A DNA stretch of 64,000 bases from Cloeon dipterum (Eukaryota; Arthropoda; Insecta; Ephemeroptera; Baetidae). Of the stretch, positions 4,537-63,872 are shown piece by piece. Every line of letters starts with the position of its first letter. The stretch's first letter is position 1. The notes beneath the pieces are model-generated. The model did not search any database. It was not told where the DNA came from and was given only the letters and a program-made list of their open reading frames with translations. The stretch covers positions 14,188,501 through 14,252,500 of the forward strand of contig NC_088787.1 of assembly GCF_949628265.1 (NCBI RefSeq), written 5' to 3'. The translations under genes and the position numbers were made by a program.

Positions 4537-4852
4537 ATGTCAACTGCTAAAATTATTTTTATAGACACCACAGGCCGCCGTAGTGTGGCTTTAGTTTCAG
4601 AAAAACAGTGTATTCCTGATAAAACTAAGTCAAAATTGAATCCCCAAGGCATTGTCAACCATACTGAAAATGGCTATTTCGTAGCTCGAAGAAAGCTGTG
4701 CATTGTTTTGAACTCGTACACGTTTCATTTCTTCATGCAAACATTATTGAGGTCTCAAAACTATCGTACAGTTTGGCTAGACTACGTCAGTCGTCACTAC
4801 TGTCACAAAAATCTTCTTGCATTTGAGATTCTACCAACTATTTTCTTCCTAG

Positions 4853-6765: not shown

Positions 6766-8879
6766 TCACTTCTCTTTGGGCTCAGATGAACTACTCTTTT
6801 GCCTCTCATCCACATTTAATAACTGAAGCGGTGTGTTAGTGTCGTCTTGCTGCATTGGTGGCTTACTGTCGGGATAATTCCACGCTTGAACCTCATCAGT
6901 GCCATAGATTTGGAACATGAAATATGTGCTGACAGAAACGATGGCAGTGACTGCGAACACGATTCGCCATTGCTCCAGGCTTTGATTCTCCTTCAGAAGG
7001 AAGCCAGCAACAATGGGCGAAAGAAAGCTAGCAGACATGTGAATGGTTTGTGCAAAGGCCAAGATGGGGCCAGCAAGATTCGGCGCAATGTCTACGATGC
7101 TCGCCATGGCACCTGCATAGGCTGCCGTGATGCAGCTAACCGCTATAAACCAAACCACCAGAATGGGCACAATGTTGCAGCCCAGGTATCCAATCAGAAC
7201 GCAGATCAGCCCAGGCACAACTTGCGCTATAGCGGTGTTCATCTTTCGGACATTTTTCAACGACATCACGTTTTTGGTGACTATCACATCAGCGAGGTAG
7301 CAGAAGATAACAGATGTGACATAGCTTAGCAGGAACGGCGCCCCGTTGAGAAGACCGTTTGTCTGAATGGAAAAGCCCAGCACCGTTTTCATGTACAGTG
7401 GACCTGTAAATAAAAGATTTAATTAAGTAACATTCCACATGTCCAGTCTTAATTCCGATTGAACACAAAAAGTGAAAGTTGTCTTGTTTACCTGATATTA
7501 TAAAAGTGTAGCTGACCCAAATACGCCCGAAGGTGGTGATGCCAATAGCCCAAACAGGCAGGGACTTGAACAATTCTTTCCAAGGCACCGGCAGTCCCTT
7601 GCCTTTCACCACTGTCTCTCCCAGGCTAACTTCAATGTAGCTTCTTTCGTAAGGCGTAATACGGGGATGCACAGCAGGGGTGTCATATGCCAGCAGGAAC
7701 CAGAATATGCACCACGTGAAACCCAAGCTTCCAGTCACGTAGAAAACAACCCTCCATCCAAAATTGGCGATGAGCCAACCACAAAGAGGGTAGGTCAAAC
7801 CAATTCCGAAACTAAAACCTTGAAATGATGACATGAACCTGCTCCTCTCGCTCGGTGGGATCCATCTTCCTGCCATTGCATACATGGCTGGCCATGTCAA
7901 GCCTGATGCGAATCCTTGGACAGACCTAAAATTTTGAGAAAAAAAACGTAGTTTGTTGGGCCATAGCGAGTCCTGTAGTTTTAATTTAAACAATATTTAT
8001 AGCAAAATAGCTCAATAGACGCCTTAACGTTTTTAAAAATTTTGAAAACAGAAAAAAGGTAAACAAATTTAAATTATTTTACACTAGCTACTCTGGTTGT
8101 TTTCCTAACTGTTGTTTGATGAAGTGGTAAGTTAAGATAACTTTATTGGGTGTCAATTTAAACTATTAAACAATAAAATACTAAACAAGTCAAAAAGAGC
8201 TGAAAATACTAATTGCTTTTATTTTAAACTCATGATAAAACTCATCAGGATTTTAGTATTGGAATAATTAATAGTAGTGGTCTGTTAAATTAAGCAAAAT
8301 TGTGCTCAGCCCTATTTTCAATATCGTATTCAAACTTTAAATAATATATTTTTGAGATGAGCTTTCTCACCTTACAAATATGACTGCAGCAAAGTGGATA
8401 TCAGTTGCAAGAGGAATAGAAATAGATCCAATGGCAGTGACGAGTTGCGAGTAACCAAACACCGTCTTGGGGCCCAACTTTTGGGTGAGGTATCCGCCCA
8501 ATATTTGAGACATTACGTAACACCAATAAAAGGAGCTGATTATAGTTGACTGAATGGTGCTGTCCCAGTCCAGGTCTCCTTCTTCATAGTTTGGTCGTCC
8601 AGAATCTTCATCTTCAGTGACGTTCGTTTGAGTGTAACAGTAAAGTTCGGTCGAGGAATCATCAGTGGCGTTCCGGACAGGGTGGCGCACCATGGCGATG
8701 ATGGCCAAGTTAATGTCATTTCGCATGACAAAACTGACGAGGAACCCAGAAAAAGAGAGCAGGTACAGAACGGCCCTGGCTGGGATGAGAGCCTGCAGAC
8801 GACGGAATGACCATGTTGGGAATTGCTTATAGGTCGGGTCCCTGCCGTCGATTGAGATCTCCAAGGGTTCTTGATCCAT
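6766..8879 (-). CDS. SLC17-family anion/phosphate cotransporter (MFS)
   Basis: Three exons on the minus strand, 8879-8371, 7925-7492 and 7403-6766, join in phase to 526 residues, the usual SLC17 length. The family includes sialin, vesicular glutamate transporters and insect 'putative inorganic phosphate cotransporters'. Residues about 31-64 form the first membrane helix (RAVLYLL, MRNDINLAIIAMV). The loop after it has two glycosylation sites, N70-A-T and N86-V-T, typical of SLC17 between helices 1 and 2. GGYLTQKLGPKTVFG follows helix 2 as in the family signature. Exon 2 has GLTWPAMYAMAGRWIPPSERSRF, matching the conserved ER(S) segment, and exon 3 has the last helices and a hydrophilic tail. 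The substrate cannot be told from sequence. Intron 1 (445 bases) holds nothing recognisable. Confidence 0.9.
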
Positions 8880-9752
8880 CTTTTCTTCCTATCACAGTCA
8901 ACTTGAGTTGGGTCCAATATTTTGTCTGCAATAATAATAATTCGAAAACATGAGAGAAAAACACTTTGTATACATGAAAGCTGCTCAAGAGCAAAGTACT
9001 GTAACACAGCGTTCTAATAAAATTGTAAGATCTGATAAAAGAGTGCGTGTGTTTGAGCAGCAAAAGCAAAACTATATCATGCAAACCTTTATACGTTCAG
9101 CAAGCGCTGGCAGCCTGCACTTCTGTGTATCTCTCGACGGTTAGTTTTTCAATAAACATCTTTATCTTGTTGAATGCGTCTACGTCGTTCTCACAAGTAG
9201 TTTTTTCACCCCGAAAAGAATCACGAAAGTCAGCGAAAAATATGCACACACTTCATGCAACGTGCATGCGTATTCAGTCTCTGCGACTGCACAGCGCTCA
9301 ATCTATCAGCCTGAATGCTGCTATGTTGAACATTTCGACCCGTTTTCTCCCCACTGTCACTATCATTGTTTTGGGTTATGGGTAGACCGGGGAGTGGAAG
9401 GAGACTTGCAAACGCCGTCTTGGTATTATCATTAATATGTACTATATTTTGCGCATTTTCGCTTTCCCGTTGAATATATCAATGCAGTTTTTTACATTTG
9501 TTGCAGTGCAAAGAATCTGGTGTGCATGCTTTGACTAATTTAAGCAAGTTCTTGCTCATCAATGCAACTCATTTTCTACAACACCCGAAGTGAAAGGGAG
9601 TTTAGAGAGGGTGGAGGAGCGGGGGATTTAAATTATTATTGAGAAAACACCTGCCTCCGGCAATGACAGCTTCTTAAGGAAATTCTCAAGATACATCTGT
9701 CTTGATATTTCCTCTTTTAAGTGCATATCAGTGGTTGCTGCAGCTAAAAACA
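8880..9752. other. Divergent intergenic region
   Basis: This separates the leftward SLC17 gene from the rightward Serendipity-alpha-like gene, so it should contain the promoters and 5' untranslated sequence of both. No coding exon or repeat is convincing. A 112-codon open frame at 9047-9385 has no recognisable content. Confidence 0.4.
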
Positions 9753-18850: not shown

Positions 18851-21800
18851 CTAGAGTTCATCACTTGGAGAGCTATTGCCGGTACTTGTGCTATCATCTG
18901 CCCAAACAGTGCTCACAGAGGGCGGTTTGATTGAGGAATGCAGTTGCTGCAGCGTCTCTTCAGCCTACAAAAGACAACACTATTAGTGCTCTTCAAGGGA
19001 ATCAATATAGATTGACAGTCAAACTACTCTATCTAAGAAACTATTTATAATTTATAAAACTTAGTTTGACGTTTGGCCAGAAATTTAAAAACCGATATAA
19101 AATTCCATCCTTAGCTCAATTTAGCTGAAATTTGGTTTGTAGAAACTGTTAATTGAGAAAAATAAATCAGAAGGCCACCAGTTGATTCGTCTTGTAAAGA
19201 ATAAGTAGTGTCTACCTATATAATTTCACCACGCTTGAATGAAAACTCTAGCTACACAATTCGACTTTGAAACATTTTCTTTGTTAAATGTCATAAGAAT
19301 TTTTACCTTTGGAGCCCCCATAACTGCATCAAATAAAAAATTTCCCTGGGAGATATCTCTTAGCTCATTACATGATCTAAAAAAAGTTCGCCTACGCATC
19401 AAATCCTAAGTTTCCTTGTTAGTTGAGCTTTAAATAATTTCTGCTATTGCTTTGTTTGATGTGCAAGCTATTAAATCATAACATAAATGTATGATATTGG
19501 TTGTAATCGGTTGTAATGAAATATTAACAAGAGTTAGTCTGGGAGGATTTTCGAGCCACATTACCTTCTTGTGTTATGTCGCAAATAATAATCTGGTGGT
19601 TAATAAGTAAGCACCATTTCATAATGAAACTGCTGAAACGTTTATCACAGCAATTAATTTACCTGCTTAAGTAAGTTTATAGCAGCATCAAGAAATCGTT
19701 GCCAATGATCCATTTCTTTGCGATGCAGAACTTCTTGCTTTTGAAGCAGCTTCAGCCAATCTTCGTGGCTTTGAGGTTTATCTCTAAATTCATTAAGAAA
19801 TATAACACTTTGAGGAGAAGGTCTCTTAGTCATAATTACTTGGGAAAAGGCAGTTCAAATTTGTTAAGTGCCACTTCACGTCCCCACTCTTCAAGGCCCC
19901 ATAATTTGTGATAGAGTAAAGCATTCAAGAGCAAGAGAGCCACCAGGGTGGCTAAAATAATCCAAGAACAGCAGGTGGGTGAGTCGGCTGCGTTCATTGG
20001 TCGATCACCTCCCACAAACTGCGAAACTAAGGCTAAAAACATAAAACGTACTGAAACAACGCACTCCAGCAACTTGTTCCGACAACAAACCTGCCCTAAC
20101 AGTGGAGCTGCCCTCTCCTGCGGCAGCGAGAGAGGTGGAACCCGACGCCTCGCTGGTGACAATCAGTTGGCCAGCTCTGACCCTGCGGTGACGGGCGATC
20201 CTGTTTTTCCGTTTCACAACAACAGAAGTGGCTTCACCGGCCAGCAAGGCTTCAGCTTCCGCGGTCAGGGCTTTCGACAAGGCTCTATAAAATTCTTCCA
20301 AACCGGACCACGAGTTCTTCTCGATGAATGTCTTGACGAGGCCCCAAACGCTCTTGCGGTATTTCAGTTGCGAATTGACACTTAAGCGACATTCATTGTC
20401 AGAGAGTCTGACCAGACAGAAATGGTTGATTATGTAGAAGGAGTCGGCATATGGAATTCCTGACTGGTTCGCCTCCACGTCAATAACATAGATTTTGCCT
20501 GGACTAGAAACAGGGGACATAACCTGAAAAGGAAGGCTAATTAGACAAGGCTATATGGTTAAATGAATATCATAAATTTCTTAATAACAATCTTTCAAGG
20601 TTGTTTGCAAAAAGTGTTTAGTATTTTGATCCTACAGATGACATTGAGCGTGTTTTCTTTGGTTTTTGTAAACAACATTTGAGTAATCTTGAAAGTTGTG
20701 CTTCCTCAACAAGCAACCAACCTGATCCTCAGTGACTTGTGCAGTTTTGGGGCCAACAGAGTTGTTAATGGAAATCGTCATTGTTACTTGACGGGTTTTG
20801 ATCCCCGTGCTCTTGTCAGGTGTCCACGAAGTAGCTTGTATATCTATTGGAAAATTTCAGATGGAAAAGACGTCGAAACACAGACCAAATCATTACCATA
20901 TGTTTTCCTAGTAGTATGAAATGCAACAAAGAATGTGGAGGTAGTAAACAGCAATGAGAATAATTGATCCACAGGAATGGGAAAAACAGCGTCAAGCAAG
21001 TCTCGTCCCTCATGAGGATTAGGACAAATAGCAACGGTATCTGAAAACAAGCGTCGGTTAGGCGTGGATTGAATAAAAATCAAAACTGCTGACCACTGTT
21101 CTCGACATCTGATTCGGTGGTGTCGGAGAGATCGGTTTGGACAGAGCCAGAATCGGCGGTCGAGGGAGCTGCGAGGAGATTTGAATTGATGGAAGGATGC
21201 AATTCTCCTGTGGCGCTCAGCAAATTAAGTTCGCTATCCTGAGAGCCAGAAGATTGGTTAATGGGCTGAGTAAGAGTGGCAGGCTCTGAGTCTTGGACAC
21301 ATGTGGTGGTGATAAGGGGTGTAATAGGTGCCTCTGGCACATCTGCTACCTTGGCGGATTGGTCCTGCACAAGACGGCGATCCCTCATTATTATTAATGG
21401 CAAATAACCGATAGCCCAGAAGAAAGAAACTAGGAAAACAAAAAAAAACAGGGACTGAAGGAAAGGAAGCCAGGAATGCTAAATAGCAGTGGAAATACAC
21501 ATACCATTGCTAGAGATCGGCTTAGGTTCGCAGCATTCTCCTCATCAATTCCCGTAGAGCTCACGTAGTCTTCGTCATCACTGGTTAGGCCCAACTCTTC
21601 GCCATAGCAGGAATGCACAAGCTGCCACAATTCTTGATTTGTCAAGCTCTGAAAGAGTGCGGAAAGGATTTGAAACAACTTGTCAACAGTCCAAGTCTCA
21701 ATGGGCGCTGTGTGAGAGAACAACGCACGAACCTATTAATAGCACTAACGCGTGTCTCGTCGAAATCTTAACTAATGGGGATTTTGTCAATGCAACTAAG

Positions 21801-28412: not shown

Positions 28413-28418
28413 TACATA

Positions 28419-29442
28419 CACTCAAAGAAAAAATTCTCATTTTGAGACGAAAAAATCGGCTCTCAAGTGAGAGCAAAAAAATTCGTCTCACTTTGAGAGC
28501 GAAAAGCGGCCTGCCGCTTTTGCGTCTCAATTTGAGACGAAAAAATCGGCTCTCAAAAGAGAGCGAAATTTTTCGTCTCACTTTGAGAGCGAAAAGCGGC
28601 CGGCCGCTTTTGCGTCTCACTTTGAGACGAAAAAATCTGCTCTCAAGTGAGAGCGAAATTTTTCGTCTCACTTTGAGAGCAAAAAGCGGCCGGCCGCGTT
28701 TCGCTCTCAAAGTGAGACGAAAAAATCGGCTTTCAACTGAGAGCGAAATTTTTCGTCTCACTTTGAGAGCGAAATGCGGCCGGCCGCTTTTGCTTCTCAA
28801 TGTAGAGCCTATTCTGTTTTGTACTTACGATCGGCTATGGCAGGCCCCGCAGAACTTTATTTTCAATCCATTTGATGATCCGCTTGGCCGAAAAACTTGA
28901 AACGTCGATCACGAACAGCATTATTACCGCACTTTTTGCCACTAAGGGACAATGCACTTGACATAAAACGACCTCAAAACCCGACTAAAAACGCCAGCGT
29001 GAGCCCTTGCCGCGAAAATAGACGGACCAGCTGAAACTGAAACTTTAAAATATAAACAATGACACTGATAGGCCAATTTTAATTTTTTGGACCAATCACA
29101 AATTAGTTCTGGTTATAACCTCACATCCTTGACTTTGACTGGCGCGAAGTCAGTCTGAAAAAAATAGAAACAAACTAATTTTTTTCAAATCAAGAGAGAT
29201 GCCAACAATAATAAAAGTGGAAATAAATTATAAAATAAATACAAAATTAATTAAAATAATAAGTGGTATAATAATTAAAATTATGAAACAGTAAAATATA
29301 AATTAATATGGATAAAAGAAATTTAAATTAAAAAAATAAATAATTTAAACATGAAAATAAATACAGTCTTTAGGAATTATTGTTAAAAAAAACTTCTTAA
29401 ATTCAAATCTGGAATATATAACATGCTTCATAAAACGAATAG
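28419..29442 (+). repeat. Left terminal inverted arm of the foldback element
   Basis: The outer 381 bases hold the 90-base tandem repeat. The inner part, 28800-29442, is unique sequence that reappears inverted at 30039-30681. The match stops at aaaacgaatag (29432-29442); inside that point the two sides differ. Confidence 0.85.
28482..28800 (+). repeat. 90-base tandem repeat, left copy
   Basis: Units begin with ttcgtctcactttgagagc at 28482, 28572, 28662 and 28752, exactly 90 bases apart, about 3.5 units in all. Each unit carries the GC palindrome GCGGCCGGCCGC (mutated to cctgcc in the first) flanked by arms reading gagagcgaaaa and its near-inverse, so every unit is itself a hairpin. As 90 is a multiple of three and stops are absent, both strands stay open and encode 30-residue arginine-rich repeats (LRAKSGRPLLRL). 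I regard this as a by-product of the repeat, not a protein. Confidence 0.85.
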
Positions 29443-29540
29443 TGATAACATGCACCAGGAAAGGAAAACATATTGCTACAAATAAAAAAAATTGATTGGA
29501 CGCGATTTTTTGACTTCAAATTCCTGGTGCATGTTATCAC
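29442..29540. repeat. Short perfect inverted repeat in the element centre
   Basis: GTGATAACATGCACCAGGAA at 29442-29461 is matched by its exact inverse at 29521-29540, with a 59-base AT-rich loop. It sits immediately inside the left arm. It could be a tiny inserted MITE or a relic of an older, longer arm. No clear target duplication flanks it. Confidence 0.7.
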
Positions 29541-30038
29541 ATTTTACCATCGGGGCAGTTTCAGGCAAATTTGCGGAAATTTGGAAGAGATGCGCCGTTA
29601 TTATGTTTTTTCTTAATTGAGATGGTTTAAATATATTCAATTCAGATTAATTAGAATTGGTGGGTTAAAATTAAAATTCTTGATAAAATTTCCAAGTTAA
29701 AAGCAGGTCCATACTGTCATGAAAGAAGACGAAAACGATGCTTCTAATCACTAATTTACATCACTGATGACAGTCCTCATCCAAAAAATATGCCAGATTG
29801 ATTCAAATTATGTTGCTCAATGTTAATATGCCGCTCAGGAAACATTAAAACATGTAAATTTGTACGTGAAATTGAAATCTATGATGTCCCTGTGGCCGAC
29901 TCTAGATTTTGCTAAAGATTTAATCAAAATTAACATTCAAAATTATGCAAGCAATTGGTTTAAAAAAAGGTTTATTCCTAACAGTGTAACTGAGAGTCTA
30001 ACCATGTATACTTCTTTAAGCCGTGTCCAGTCTACCTG

Positions 30039-32563
30039 CTATTCGTTTTATGAAGCATGTTATATATTCCAGATTTGAATTTAAGAAGTTTTTTTTAACA
30101 ATAATTCCTAAAGACTGTATTTATTTTCATGTTTAAATTATTTATTTTTTTAATTTAAATTTCTTTTATCCATATTAATTTATATTTTACTGTTTCATAA
30201 TTTTAATTATTATACCACTTATTATTTTAATTAATTTTGTATTTATTTTATAATTTATTTCCACTTTTATTATTGTTGGCATCTCTCTTGATTTGAAAAA
30301 AATTAGTTTGTTTCTATTTTTTTCAGACTGACTTCGCGCCAGTCAAAGTCAAGGATGTGAGGTTATAACCAGAACTAATTTGTGATTGGTCCAAAAAATT
30401 AAAATTGGCCTATCAGTGTCATTGTTTATATTTTAAAGTTTCAGTTTCAGCTGGTCCGTCTATTTTCGCGGCAAGGGCTCACGCTGGCGTTTTTAGTCGG
30501 GTTTTGAGGTCGTTTTATGTCAAGTGCATTGTCCCTTAGTGGCAAAAAGTGCGGTAATAATGCTGTTCGTGATCGACGTTTCAAGTTTTTCGGCCAAGCG
30601 GATCATCAAATGGATTGAAAATAAAGTTCTGCGGGGCCTGCCATAGCCGATCGTAAGTACAAAACAGAATAGGCTCTACATTAGAGACCTGCGCGGTTTT
30701 ATTTTTTAACAACCGTTGTTACCAATACCATCGAAATATTAACCACAACCGCACCAAAACCGCAACTCTAATGACATAACCGCGGTTGCGGTTAACCGCA
30801 AAAATACCGCAAAAACCGCAACGAAAATATACTAATACAAAAATTCCGTTTTTTTGAGTGAAATATGGTTAGGGTATTTTTCCTTTTTTTTTCAAAATTT
30901 TTTGTACCTAATAAATAACGTATAGCGGTCGAAATACAAATTGATTCCTCGAAATTTAGGCTCAGATTTGAGATAATTGCGGTTCATTTTGGTTGTATAT
31001 TTAAATTATATAATATACATATATTAAAAAAATATATCATAATCGTGGAGTGGACTTTAATATTTATTATTGTTTATTCAATTCACTGTTTCCGGGGCTC
31101 TAGCTCGGGGCCCCGGAGCCCGATTCGAAAAATTCCTACCGTGGCATACACTTTGGATGTGGGGAAAGAGAATCCAAATTCAGCCAAAATTAAGGCTTTT
31201 TCAAATTTTCTCAGCAAACGTGGTGCGATACACCATATGGAATCTGGGTGAAAATTTCCGGCGAAGCCAATGGTGTTAATAAACAATCGGAAAAAAAATG
31301 AATTTTCATGAAAATCGGTGAAAATTTGAAAACTGTGTCGGGAAGTTCAGCTCGAGGGGAAACTGTGGGGGGCAAATAATCTTGTTCATAAAAATTTGAA
31401 ATTCTATATAAGGCTAGAAAATGGCAAGTTAATCCTGAAAAATTTTGGTCTTTGAAAATTATACCAAAATTGTCCATTTCATAAAGGGTCCAAGTTTGGC
31501 TTTGCAGCTCGGAACCTATACATGGGTCCAAAGAAAAAATAAGAACAGATTCTGTGAAAGCTGATGAAATTTGCAATCTTATATAAGTGGAAATAGATTT
31601 TTCAGAACCATCAAATTTTCTGGTAAATTACTGAAATGTTCACTTAACTTAATGAGAAAAATAAAAATTCGAGAAAAATTGTTCAAGCAGGTGACTAAAA
31701 TTTTGCTGGAGATCTTCATCAACATCTCATGAAAAGTAAAAACATTCGTTAACGCCGTTATCGGGTTGCATGCAATATCCCAAGTGTCCGCCTGGAAAAC
31801 CCGATAAATTCGAATGTTTGTATCCATAAACAATAAATTTGCACATTTTTAGACTCGTCATAAAGGTTTTCTAAAATTGGAGCATGTTTAAAAAAAGTTG
31901 TGGAGTTTTTTTTAAAATTTTCAGAATTTTTTCGGAAAGTTCCGACTTATCAAAATTGGTGAACATGAACTCGTGGTATGACTCATTGTCAGTCATCGGC
32001 CAGGGAAAGGGTCGTATCGTAGGTATTGCGGTTATTTTTGGATGACCAAAACCGCAAAAATAAAACCGCAACCGCACCACTACCGCACCGCAACTGAAAA
32101 AGAACTCCATAACCGCGGTTTTGGAGTGCGGTTTGCGGTATTTTTTTCCAAAACCGCAACCGCGCAGGTCTCTACTCTACATTGAGAAGCAAAAGCGGCC
32201 GGCCGCATTTCGCTCTCAAAGTGAGACGAAAAATTTCGCTCTCAGTTGAAAGCCGATTTTTTCGTCTCACTTTGAGAGCGAAACGCGGCCGGCCGCTTTT
32301 TGCTCTCAAAGTGAGACGAAAAATTTCGCTCTCACTTGAGAGCAGATTTTTTCGTCTCAAAGTGAGACGCAAAAGCGGCCGGCCGCTTTTCGCTCTCAAA
32401 GTGAGACGAAAAATTTCGCTCTCTTTTGAGAGCCGATTTTTTCGTCTCAAATTGAGACGCAAAAGCGGCAGGCCGCTTTTCGCTCTCAAAGTGAGACGAA
32501 TTTTTTTGCTCTCACTTGAGAGCCGATTTTTTCGTCTCAAAATGAGAATTTTTTCTTTGAGTG
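30039..32563 (-). repeat. Right terminal inverted arm, split by an insertion
   Basis: The inner part, 30039-30681, is the inverse of 28800-29442. The outer part, 32182-32563, is the inverse of 28419-28800 and carries the second copy of the 90-base repeats at about 32182-32500. Between them lies the hAT MITE at 30682-32174, which must therefore be younger than the foldback element. Confidence 0.85.
30682..32174. mobile_element. hAT-type MITE, 1,493 bases
   Basis: Terminal inverted repeats TAGAGACCTGCGCGGTT and its exact inverse bound the element, and the 8-base target duplication CTCTACAT is perfect on both sides (30674-30681 and 32175-32182). Eight-base duplications and short TIRs are hallmarks of hAT transposons. 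The subterminal 150 bases at each end are packed with the word accgc/gcggt (aaccgc at least a dozen times), as expected for transposase-binding repeats. The interior (about 31040-31860) has short open frames on both strands but nothing like the hAT catalytic or zinc-finger domains, so it is non-autonomous. The uninterrupted site is preserved in the left arm of the host element at 28800-28807. Confidence 0.9.
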
Positions 32564-32569
32564 TACATA

Positions 32570-57437: not shown

Positions 57438-60400
57438 ATGGTCGGCTTGGCGTGTTTCAGGAGGATGGACACGGAGACCCTGAATGGAGAGGTGACCCCG
57501 GTGGAGCAGGTCGGCTCCAAAGGGGACGGCGCCATGGAGCCGCACGCCATCAGTGGCTTCAACCTGGTCAACACCACCAACGACGAGGACCTGACGCCAC
57601 CCTCGGTCAACGGCCACCACAGCCCCGTGCAGGCCAAGAAGCTGCCCCCGCAAGTCATTGAGGTGCAGCCAACCATTGAGTAAGTAGATCCTCATTCGGA
57701 CTTTGGCACTCTCTCATTGATCAGTCGATGCGACCGATATGTCTCAATCGCGCGCGCGAGGCATCTGCATAGATTGCAGTTTGATTTTCGCACCCAGCTA
57801 GAGCGCAGTTTGTCGGTGCTCGTCAATTCGTTTCATTTTAACTTTTGAATATTTTTGTAAGTATATATATCCTGTTTATTTCTTTAAAATTAACAATTGA
57901 AAGCTTTTGCCCACTGGAAAATAGTCGAAACAACAAGAGTGGTGCGGTATACGTATTTATATTTATAGCTAGAAAGTGTGTGGTGTTGAAATAATTGAAC
58001 TATCGGAAACACTTAAACTGTACAAAATAAACAAGCGATCATACCACCACGCACAGTCCCCTTAAGATTAGTGCTTATGCAACTGCGCAAGCACTGGTGT
58101 TGTGCGGGCTTGCATTGAAAAATGGAAAGGTTTTTTTCTAAATGATCAAATTTACAGTAAAAAATATCTGATGGTATTTTTTATGGTCCTGCAATTGTTG
58201 GGAATAAAAATGTAAAGAAATTTGTGCTTTTCCTTGCATTCTATGCTTGGCAAAAGATGAGTGCATTTTTAAACAACGTCAAGTGAGATCAAACTAAATA
58301 TTTTTATCTCCGCCATATATCTGCCACTTGAATAATTGTTGATAGTAGTCTTCTTCATTGCATTGTATTTAACGTGTATGCTCCGTCATTGCGTTTCAGA
58401 GTGGTTGCCGAGCAGAAACCGAAAATGCAGACTAAGGAGTACCTGGACGGCCCTGACCAGTTGATCCCGAGTGAAAGCCTCTTCAACTGCCAGCCTGATG
58501 GAGCTGTCAAGCTGCGAGTGGGCACGGAAGGAGTCGCATCGGAAAAACCTATTTCCGTGCCTACAATGTTGAAGAGAACAGCCGACCGGTTTCCCAATCG
58601 CACTGCCATGGCCGTCAAGAAAGACAAGAACGCAGACTGGACTAGAATCACCTTCAGAGAGTACGAACAGAATGTTCGCACTGTCGCGAAAGCGTTCATC
58701 AAACTCGGCCTCGAGCGCTTCCACTCGGTCAATATTCTCGGCTTCAACTCGCCAGAATGGTACATCTCCGACTTGGCGGCCATCTATGCAGGGTAAATTT
58801 ACTTTTTATTATTATTAAATAAAATATAGCCAATATATTTCTAAGAATGTAAAAAACCAATGGAAATATAAAAGAGGAAAATATAACACTACAATTAATT
58901 AACTCTTCTTGCAGTGGTTTTGCAGCCGGCATCTACACCACAAACAGCGCTGAGGCGTGCCACTACTGCGCGGAAAACAGCCGGGCTAACATAATCGTAG
59001 TTGAAGACGATAAGCAGCTGAAGAAGATCCTTCAAGTCAGATCGCGCCTGCCGCATCTGAAGGCAATCATCCAGTACGCTGGAAAACCCGAAGCTGAAGG
59101 AGTGCTCAGCGTAAGCGACTCGTCTTTTTGACCGCCATAAGTTAAATGCAACTTAATTTTCTAAATCAGTGGGAGGATGTGATGAAACTTGGCGAGGAGC
59201 AGAGTGACGATGAGTTAGAGCAGCGTATCAAAAGGATTGCTGTCAACCAATGTTGCACCTTGGTTTATACGGTACGAATTTAAGTTGCACGCACCCCTAA
59301 AATAAAAATAAATAAATAAATCTCGGCAACTTATCAATTTTCCTTTTGCTCTACAATTTATAATGTTAAAACTAGATCATAAATTCAATAGTTGAATGAA
59401 AAATATCCACCAGCTTTTCTTATCGCAGCAATGCCACAAATCTTGTTGTTTAGCGTTTTCCTCAATCACTGTGATTTCCGCACAATTTATTTCCTTCTGA
59501 CGTCTTTGATGTTCTATATTTTCTTATTGTTTCATGTCCTTTTTAGTCTGGAACCACTGGCAATCCCAAGGGCGTGATGTTGAGTCATGACAACCTCACG
59601 TGGGATGCTCTTGCTATCGGCAGCTACCTCAAGTTGAAAATGGGAGAGGAAGAAATCGTCAGCTACTTGCCTCTTAGTCACGTTGCCGCTCAGGTACAAT
59701 TTTGATCTCGAATTTGTTTTTTTTTTTAATTAAATAAATGACCAAAATTTCAGGTTGTGGATCTTTTCATAACAATTTCGTACGCAGCTACTGTGTACTT
59801 TGCCCAACCGGACGCGTTGAAAGGAAGTTTGCTGCCCACCCTGTTGGAAATCAGGCCAACAAAATTCCTTGGGGTGCCTAGGGTGTGGGAAAAAATCTAT
59901 GAAAAGATGCAGGACATTGGCAGGCAGTCAACTGGCATTCGTAAGACTCTCGCCACTTGGGCCAAGCGCCACGGCCTTGAGTACAACATGAACAGGATGA
60001 AGGGGTATGTAAGAAAAGGATTTAGTAAAGCGTTGTTTTAATTTATTTTCTATATAGAATTAATACCCCTACTTGGAGCTACACATTTGCCAGTTTTCTG
60101 GTGCTCAAAAGAGTTCGAAAGGCGCTTGGATTGGACAGGTGCAATCTTTTCGTGTCTGCTGCCGCTCCCATCTCGACAGAGGTTGTGAAATACTTCATGA
60201 GTCTGGACATTCCAGTCATGGAGGTAAGGTTATCAAGAAAATAACTGGTCTAAATTTATGTTGTGACTTGTTCTTCAGGCGTATGGTATGTCAGAGGCCG
60301 CTGGAGCTCACACACTGAACACTCCAGACTTCTTCAAAATCGAAACTGTGGGCAAAACCCTACCTGGAATGCAGACACTGCTCTTTGAACAAGATGAGAG

Positions 60401-62015: not shown

Positions 62016-63872
62016 TCAAAAAGTCTCCATATCGTCCATCTCCTCCATGTTCACATGCAGGTCCAACAAGTCATCTTCATAAGACGTGAGGGACCGCTCA
62101 GGCACATTGTTGTTTGTCTTGAGGGGAATGGCTCTCCTGTCCTGACTGTCATTGACACAGCCAGACTCAGGGCTACTGTCTGCTCTGCAGTCAGTGACCG
62201 GCGACGGAGGTGGATTCCTTACAATGGCTCTGGGGTCCTCCTCCTCGCCGCTTGTGGGTTCAGTCTTCATGTCCAGCTCTCCGTCCTCCAGCTCTCCATC
62301 CTCAATTTCAGCCTCAGTGACTGCAACAAAAATGAGAAATCTTTAAATAGTTTTTGGATTTACACCCTTTTTGAGTAACTTTGGTTTAAGAACATCATCT
62401 TAATTTTAAAAAAACGAGTACAGCTTTTGAAAAATAGGATGTTGGTGAGAAAAAGGGGTATATGTCATGAAATGATATCTAAATTGGCACGAAACCCGTC
62501 TGAAACTTTTCAACCCTGATAAGAAAAAGTTGAGAAACTAATTTTTTGGTATTCCCTTTTTGTGACAAATACCTTTGGCATGGTTAATAGGCTGAGAATT
62601 GGCAGCCATGGCAGCTATTGCTATCTCTCTCCTCTTTTGGGATCTATGCAACCGCTTGACCTTATCTTGTTCCCTGCGATTGTCCTCAAAAATCTCCAGG
62701 CATTCACCACTGTTGCAGGTATTCCTGACATGGAAGAGAAACACACCTCCACTAGTGCGTCGGCGAGTTTGGTTCTGAAACAATTGGAATATAACCTCAC
62801 CCATCATACAAAGGGCAAATTTATCTACCATGATGAGCATTCCTCCATTGGCCTCAACACTTTTAGTCAGCTTGTAGATTTCTGCAGCCTTCTCTTTTCC
62901 AATAACCTTCACTATTCTCACTGAAATAATAATAAAAATAAAGAACATTGATTGCCTGGCAGCTGAAAACTTACAAATGAGGTCTCCTTTCTCCTCATTT
63001 AACTTTTCTGTGACATCCTTGGCAAAATCTTCAATTGAACTATCCAGGGTGACTTGCAGATCTTTCAGCTCCCTCTTGGTTCCTTTTCTCTCAGTGGCGT
63101 TCTTTGTCCTCCAACCCAGTCTACTCTTCACGTTGCCGCTCTCCCTTTCAGCGTGGCTTCTCTTATTACTAGCAGGAAAGTTTGGACTCCTTCTACGAGG
63201 AACGTCATCTGCGAAATCCTCAGGACTGTCGGAGTAACCAGCACGGTGGGACAAGTAGTCGTAGGACTCAACATTCCTGTCTCTTTTGCCAGGTCGCTGA
63301 GCAACATCACAGCCAATTAGTCCTCTTGTCAGAACTTCCTCCTGCAGGCCTGAGCACCAAATGTCGTACTTCTTAGTTTTTGCAGCTGCGGTTGGTGGAA
63401 GAGGACGGGGCTTGATTGCCTTCACCTTGCGCTTCTTTGTGTGGCGATGTTGATCGCCAGTGTCATTATCCGAGTCACTGTCATCAGAGGAAGAATCCTC
63501 CTCAGGCTCGCTCTCATCTGGAAGTTGTTGGACAGGCCGCGGACCTGGGTCAATTAGTTCTGCTGGCCGCTGAAGTGGTACATAACCGAAGTCAAGATCG
63601 ACCTGCGAACCCAACAAAATTACTAATTAACATGTTTCCTTCGAACTCACAGCTCCTGAAAAAACGTTCTGTTTGCAGAAAGGCGGGGAATTTTAGAGCC
63701 CATATTCAACTTCTTTGGTATTTATGTGCATTGTATTTTGTGTATGTATAAATGCATTATTACATCAATTTATTTTTGTTCAACCGAGGTTTAATCTATA
63801 TCAATGATTTTAGCTGGTATTAAATTCCGAATTTCACTTTACCACATCCTCGACGATTTCGCCGTCTTCCAT
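62016..63872 (-). CDS. PHAX: Phosphorylated adaptor for RNA export
   Basis: PHAX bridges capped U snRNAs to the exportin CRM1 and is phosphorylated in the nucleus. Five exons on the minus strand (63872-63843, 63602-62975, 62920-62829, 62774-62573, 62320-62016) give 418 residues. The first exon is ten codons, MEDGEIVEDV, resembling the acidic family start. A serine/aspartate cluster, SEPEEDSSSDDSDSDNDTGD, fits the CK2 sites required for export, followed by the basic segment HTKKRKVKAIKPRP. The RNA-binding domain is at about 213-300: RIVKVIGKEKAAEIYKLTKS, VEANGGMLIM, then NQTRRRTSGGVFLFHVRNT. The C-terminal exon is acidic (EAEIEDGELEDGELDMKTEP). Exon 3 ends at a GTAGAT donor with a 54-base intron, without which the RRRTSGG motif would be interrupted. 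Confidence 0.93.

Follow-up and report, generated by a model that had tools for sequence, protein, structure and literature searches.

Long-armed foldback transposons of Cloeon dipterum with CAC...GTG ends and a 2-bp target duplication, likely mobilised by a CMC-type transposase

A foldback element lying in a 64-kb stretch of a 190-Mb, 10-contig genome (C2:14188501-14252500; 'the window' denotes this whole stretch) belongs to a dispersed family whose ends, CACTCAAAG, have the form CAC...GTG and whose insertion duplicates 2 bp of target, with TA preferred. We regard it as a non-autonomous, foldback-type, cut-and-paste DNA transposon, likely mobilised by a transposase whose superfamily, CMC (Chapaev-Mirage-CACTA), we infer; it would act like a CMC element and is not filed here as a proven member.

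Structure of the window copy

The features of the copy, in window positions, are as follows.
28417-28418, no strand: left target-site duplication copy, TA, 2 bp (2-bp rule from 13 of 14 elements)
28419-29442, plus strand: left arm, 1,024 bp, terminus CACTCAAAGAAAAAATTCTC
28435-28801, plus strand: left subterminal array, a 90-bp unit rich in TCTCA/TGAGA present in 4.1 copies, 89% matches
29443-30038, no strand: centre, 596 bp
30039-30681, minus strand: right arm, inner piece
30674-30681, no strand: first copy of the 8-bp duplication CTCTACAT flanking the later insert, read from the sequence
30682-32174, no strand: later insert, 1,493 bp, foreign to the foldback element; ends and duplication read from the sequence
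32175-32563, minus strand: right arm, outer piece, its opening 8 bp being the second copy of CTCTACAT
32181-32547, minus strand: right-arm subterminal 90-bp array
32564-32565, no strand: right target-site duplication copy, TA, 2 bp (same rule)

The left arm is complementary to the two pieces of the right arm (28419-29442 against 30039-30681 plus 32175-32563) with no mismatch, and the right arm measures 643 + 389 bases less the 8 bases that the later insert duplicated, that is 1,024, which bears out the description in the earlier note of two equal 1,024-base arms around a 596-base centre once the insert is subtracted. All 16 inverted repeats of at least 60 bases listed for the window by a repeat search (seed 14) fall inside the element. 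The 90-base unit spans positions 17-383 of each arm in 4.1 copies, and arm positions 1-386 hold 12 TCTCA and 11 TGAGA motifs (23 together) against none in positions 387-1024. Judged from sequence, this array is a candidate transposase-binding array, a possible role.

The later insert ends in 17-base inverted repeats, TAGAGACCTGCGCGGTT. An 8-base duplication is a feature of hAT elements, and by its duplication and inverted ends the insert appears hAT-like. At least six other essentially full-length places in the genome match it at 92-98% (40 of 110 candidates scored). Its presence in one arm only shows that it has been neither lost nor copied through full-length conversion since it arrived.

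The window copy is apparently non-coding, and an Rfam scan of the window gave no match at gathering scores. None of the 9 scanned frames among the 25 listed for the long copy L010 reached a Pfam cut-off, the weak matches in this set (E 0.005-0.14) being confined to two frames that lie in the 90-bp array or run across it. Elsewhere in the window, open frames at 6769-8888, 20008-20550, 58332-58793 and 62541-63626 carry MFS_1, VASt, AMP-binding and PHAX RNA-binding domains (scan of 10 among the 20 frames listed), and the foldback element is situated between these domain-bearing frames.

A dispersed family with several length forms

The arm as a genome query gave 57 matches, and the 20-base end occurred at 31 places with up to two mismatches, compared with 3 for the reversed control. 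Exact 20-bp ends numbered 15, forming seven pairs and one single. The seven paired copies (the window copy, L009, L010, L011, L012, L013 and L014) lie on contigs C1-C5, and the earlier proposal of a mobile foldback with other genomic copies is thus upheld by both the arm matches and the copies with two exact ends. An assembly artefact, in which the inverted arrangement would be unreal and, as the earlier note put it, unique to this assembly, is extremely improbable: no evidence for it was found, and the arrangement is repeated in all seven copies with different flanks and arm lengths.

Four copies (L009, L010, L011 and L014) are longer, with arms of about 1.57 kb, a length taken from L010 and L011 and, across gaps, from L014, around a centre of about 560 bases. 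Positions 79-596 of the window-copy centre correspond to the inner part of both arms in the longer copies, and two L010 blocks of about 0.5 kb each are missing from the window copy; we infer that the longer form gave rise to the shorter. L012 and L013 are shortened differently. Given these longer and shortened forms, 1,024 bases is not a fixed arm length of the family. The left arm of L009 carries a 5.3-kb insert whose frames look retroelement-like by eye.

Several other repeats were also recorded. Old family-1-like ends at L018, L019 and L024 share a common outer flank, TTTCATAAACACCA, and further inward carry the repeat into which L012 inserted, forming duplicated composite repeats, and a 938-aa open frame (L026:4688-7501, minus strand) lies between two partial family-1-like ends. 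The L010 centre as a query returned 69 matches (40 of 291 candidates scored), and its positions 41-243 (L010:2034-2236) are about 76-83% similar to recurring segments, several of them inverted pairs about 1.5 kb apart, which are perhaps another inverted-repeat family.

Two further families resemble this one (family 1). Family 2 has ends CACTCACAG and at least 11 paired copies (40 of 74 candidates scored), including a copy (L075) with arms of about 0.76 and 0.86 kb around a 193-base centre, as well as short forms of 288-293 bases. Family 3, represented by L023, is a 5.3-kb near-palindrome matching its own complement at 98.4% over 5,302 bases, with ends CACACAGAG and TA adjoining both sides; it is 72% similar to arm positions 461-868 and stands outside the junction table described below.

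Target-site duplication

The junction table comprised 14 elements, seven of family 1 and the seven family 2 copies in which both flanks were legible. The flanks match over exactly 2 bp in 13 elements and over 3 bp in none, a pattern to which a simple base-composition model gives a chance of about 1e-14. The duplicated dinucleotide is TA in 8 elements, CA in 2, and TG, TT and CT in 1 each, the TA of the window copy being counted within this tally; the exception is L009, flanked by TA and CA. L012, which sits in a repeat, has TA on each side (flanks GGTA and TAAT), and the two aligned empty sites in L019 and L024, about 87% alike to its flanks, have a single TA. Seven joined flank pairs were searched, and two (L012 and L014) gave junction-spanning matches, 44 in all, those of L014 being known as coordinates only; the other five, the window copy included, gave no empty site among the 40 of 214 candidates scored.

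The earlier note read TACATA at the two ends of the window copy as a 6-base duplication, and took it with the CACTC terminus to fit no nameable superfamily and possibly to mark a new type. TACATA does flank both ends, but agreement over 6 bp is confined to this copy and absent from the 13 other elements. With the L012 empty sites showing 2 bp as well, a 6-bp duplication is rejected; the TACATA match is a coincidence, and tabulation of duplications over many copies, which the earlier note had suggested, yields 2 bp with TA preferred. This pairing of CAC...GTG ends and a 2-bp duplication is known from CMC/CACTA elements: two CACTA MITEs found in wasps and polydnaviruses, CMC-NA_1 and CMC-NA_2, are presented with both features (PMC6004678), the CMCT clade is given CA..TG ends in most cases and duplications of 2-5 bp (PMC12730594), and 2-bp direct repeats are noted for animal CACTA relatives (PMC1636069, PMC4298943). 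Because ends and duplication match published CMC elements, no new superfamily is required, and we give one with CACTC ends and a 6-bp duplication almost no credence.

The predominance of TA also suits TA-specific superfamilies. A Tc1/mariner-type element with TA target and expanded inverted repeats would explain the TA duplication in 8 of the 13 exact cases; Tc1/mariner elements are not known to duplicate anything but TA, and the remaining 5 of 13, with CA twice and TG, TT and CT once each, all identical on the two sides, make this origin improbable. Duplications of 7-10 bp, as in Mutator and P foldbacks, find no counterpart, as no element among 14 agrees over 7 or 8 bp and none among 8 over 7 to 11 bp.

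Similarity between arms

Non-tandem parts of 14 arms were aligned (633-645 bases long in 13 of them, 442 in the other), with L011 and L014 turned so that centres agree. The two window arms show no difference in 635 bp and share three bases absent from all other arms (columns 136, 251 and 497). The arms of L012 likewise have three private bases in common (columns 75, 308 and 325) and differ at two sites; those of L013 and L014 differ at two and six sites, respectively. Private bases present in both arms of one copy are best explained by arm-to-arm copying, which means that arm identity is no clock for insertion. Of the two causes offered earlier for the equal arms, a young element or gene conversion, the second is favoured by these private bases and youth as the sole cause is not; from the aligned arms, the identity in the window copy is probably a product of arm-to-arm homogenisation. 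The repair route would operate either after excision or when the element folds back during replication. Possible homogenisation of repeats within elements is mentioned by the authors who described the Drosophila virilis foldback Tetris (PMC4079207).

Transposase and candidate partners

The earlier note had suggested looking for an autonomous relative with like ends. With one mismatch allowed, a joint end pattern matched 100 times, a figure in which two places appear twice, compared with 10 for the reversed control. Among these matches were inverted pairs: five spaced 10,294-10,332 bases apart, and one each spaced at 4,617 and 3,888 bases. The five longer pairs, selected by end-pattern match and spacing, are as follows.
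C1:35069239-35079570: 10.3-kb candidate pair
C1:41691342-41701671: 10.3-kb candidate pair
C2:35726697-35737028: 10.3-kb candidate pair
C4:18254840-18265133: 10.3-kb candidate pair
C5:1871918-1882211: 10.3-kb candidate pair

By eye, none overlaps the arm, centre, insert or family 2 matches listed, so that they share ends with the families but no detected arms. They are possible autonomous partners; the search thus located candidates, and no transposase was tied to the ends. The Pfam Transposase_21 model found no match in the genome at E 1e-3 and likewise none in control genomes, which makes this weak evidence either way. A weak Transposase_21 match (C4:32405068-32405316; E 0.022, 20.4 bits against a cut-off of 28.6) sits in an uninterrupted 693-aa frame with no listed family end within 2 Mb and may represent a divergent CMC transposase.

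A transposase of PHIS type (PIF/Harbinger, ISL2EU or relatives) could also mobilise the foldback with 2-bp duplications, duplications of 0, 2 or 3 bp being attributed to Harbinger-related elements (PMC12730594), and the genome contains one DDE_Tnp_4 match, scoring 136.7 bits, at C3:1819818-1820306 within an open frame of 335 aa. This match is single, however, lies inside no listed element and is about 25 kb from the nearest family 2 short element (C3:1794509-1794796), and we consider a PHIS source unlikely, if a little less so than a Tc1/mariner one. The DDE_Tnp_4 frame itself is either Harbinger-type or domesticated.

Classification and proposed mechanism

Foldback architecture is evident in the long inverted arms, which enclose a middle domain and contain internal tandem repeats, and in the dispersed copies with target duplications. 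Affinity to CMC is indicated by CA(C)...(G)TG termini, family 3 included, and by the 2-bp duplication in the junction table and at the L012 empty sites; a DDE transposase carrying C(2)C and H(3-4)H motifs, encoded by an autonomous relative that shares the ends, is a further mark of the group.

Under the preferred reading, mobilisation by CMC, a transposase supplied by another element would recognise the CAC...GTG ends, and perhaps also the TCTCA-rich arrays beside them, excise the element and insert it elsewhere with a 2-bp duplication, preferably at TA. Repair that copies one arm onto the other, or that slips across the palindrome, would keep the arms alike, and the same repair at the palindrome could also yield internal deletions. 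We propose that the window copy arose through such an internal deletion and that the hAT-like insert struck it afterwards. A broader scenario, put forward tentatively and with less than even confidence, is that a CMC-clade lineage gave rise to at least three giant-armed foldback families (CACTCAAAG, CACTCACAG and CACACAGAG), moved by a 10.3-kb partner with a transposase too divergent for Pfam Transposase_21, and that repair during transposition, with the opposite arm as its template, keeps the two arms of each copy alike.

Among described systems, CMC-NA_1 and CMC-NA_2 have the same form of ends and length of duplication, and no autonomous partner was found for them according to their description, from which the likeness is drawn; they are termed MITEs, whereas the arms here reach 1.0-1.6 kb and contain a 90-bp array (PMC6004678). 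SmTRC1 and animal TRC elements of the CACTA group are likewise reported with 2-bp direct repeats at insertion sites, but with CCC ends, a 54-bp inverted repeat in Schistosoma mansoni and an encoded Transposase_21 domain (PMC1636069). The CACTC terminus matches neither the plant CACTA motif nor these CCC ends, which occur in some animal CACTA relatives (PMC1636069). Among foldbacks, Galileo of the P superfamily is similar in its long, internally repetitive inverted arms and variable structure, and differs in its 7-bp duplication and P-type transposase, compared with 2 bp and other ends here (PMC3573991); its long arms are reported to hold multiple binding sites for the transposase THAP domain (PMC3688188). 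Tetris is apparently non-autonomous, without conserved open reading frames and with tandem repeats in its arms, as here, but has an 8-10 bp duplication, and its authors suggested Mutator (PMC4079207). A CACTA or CMC foldback is named in no title that we found in the literature, which does not show that none is in print (papers with both words exist, e.g. PMC8504770).

The family offers a natural test of arm-to-arm gene conversion, since one can count the copies whose two arms share private substitutions. If the assignment to CMC is true, CMC-type ends would represent a further origin of foldback architecture, beside that of Galileo in the P superfamily.
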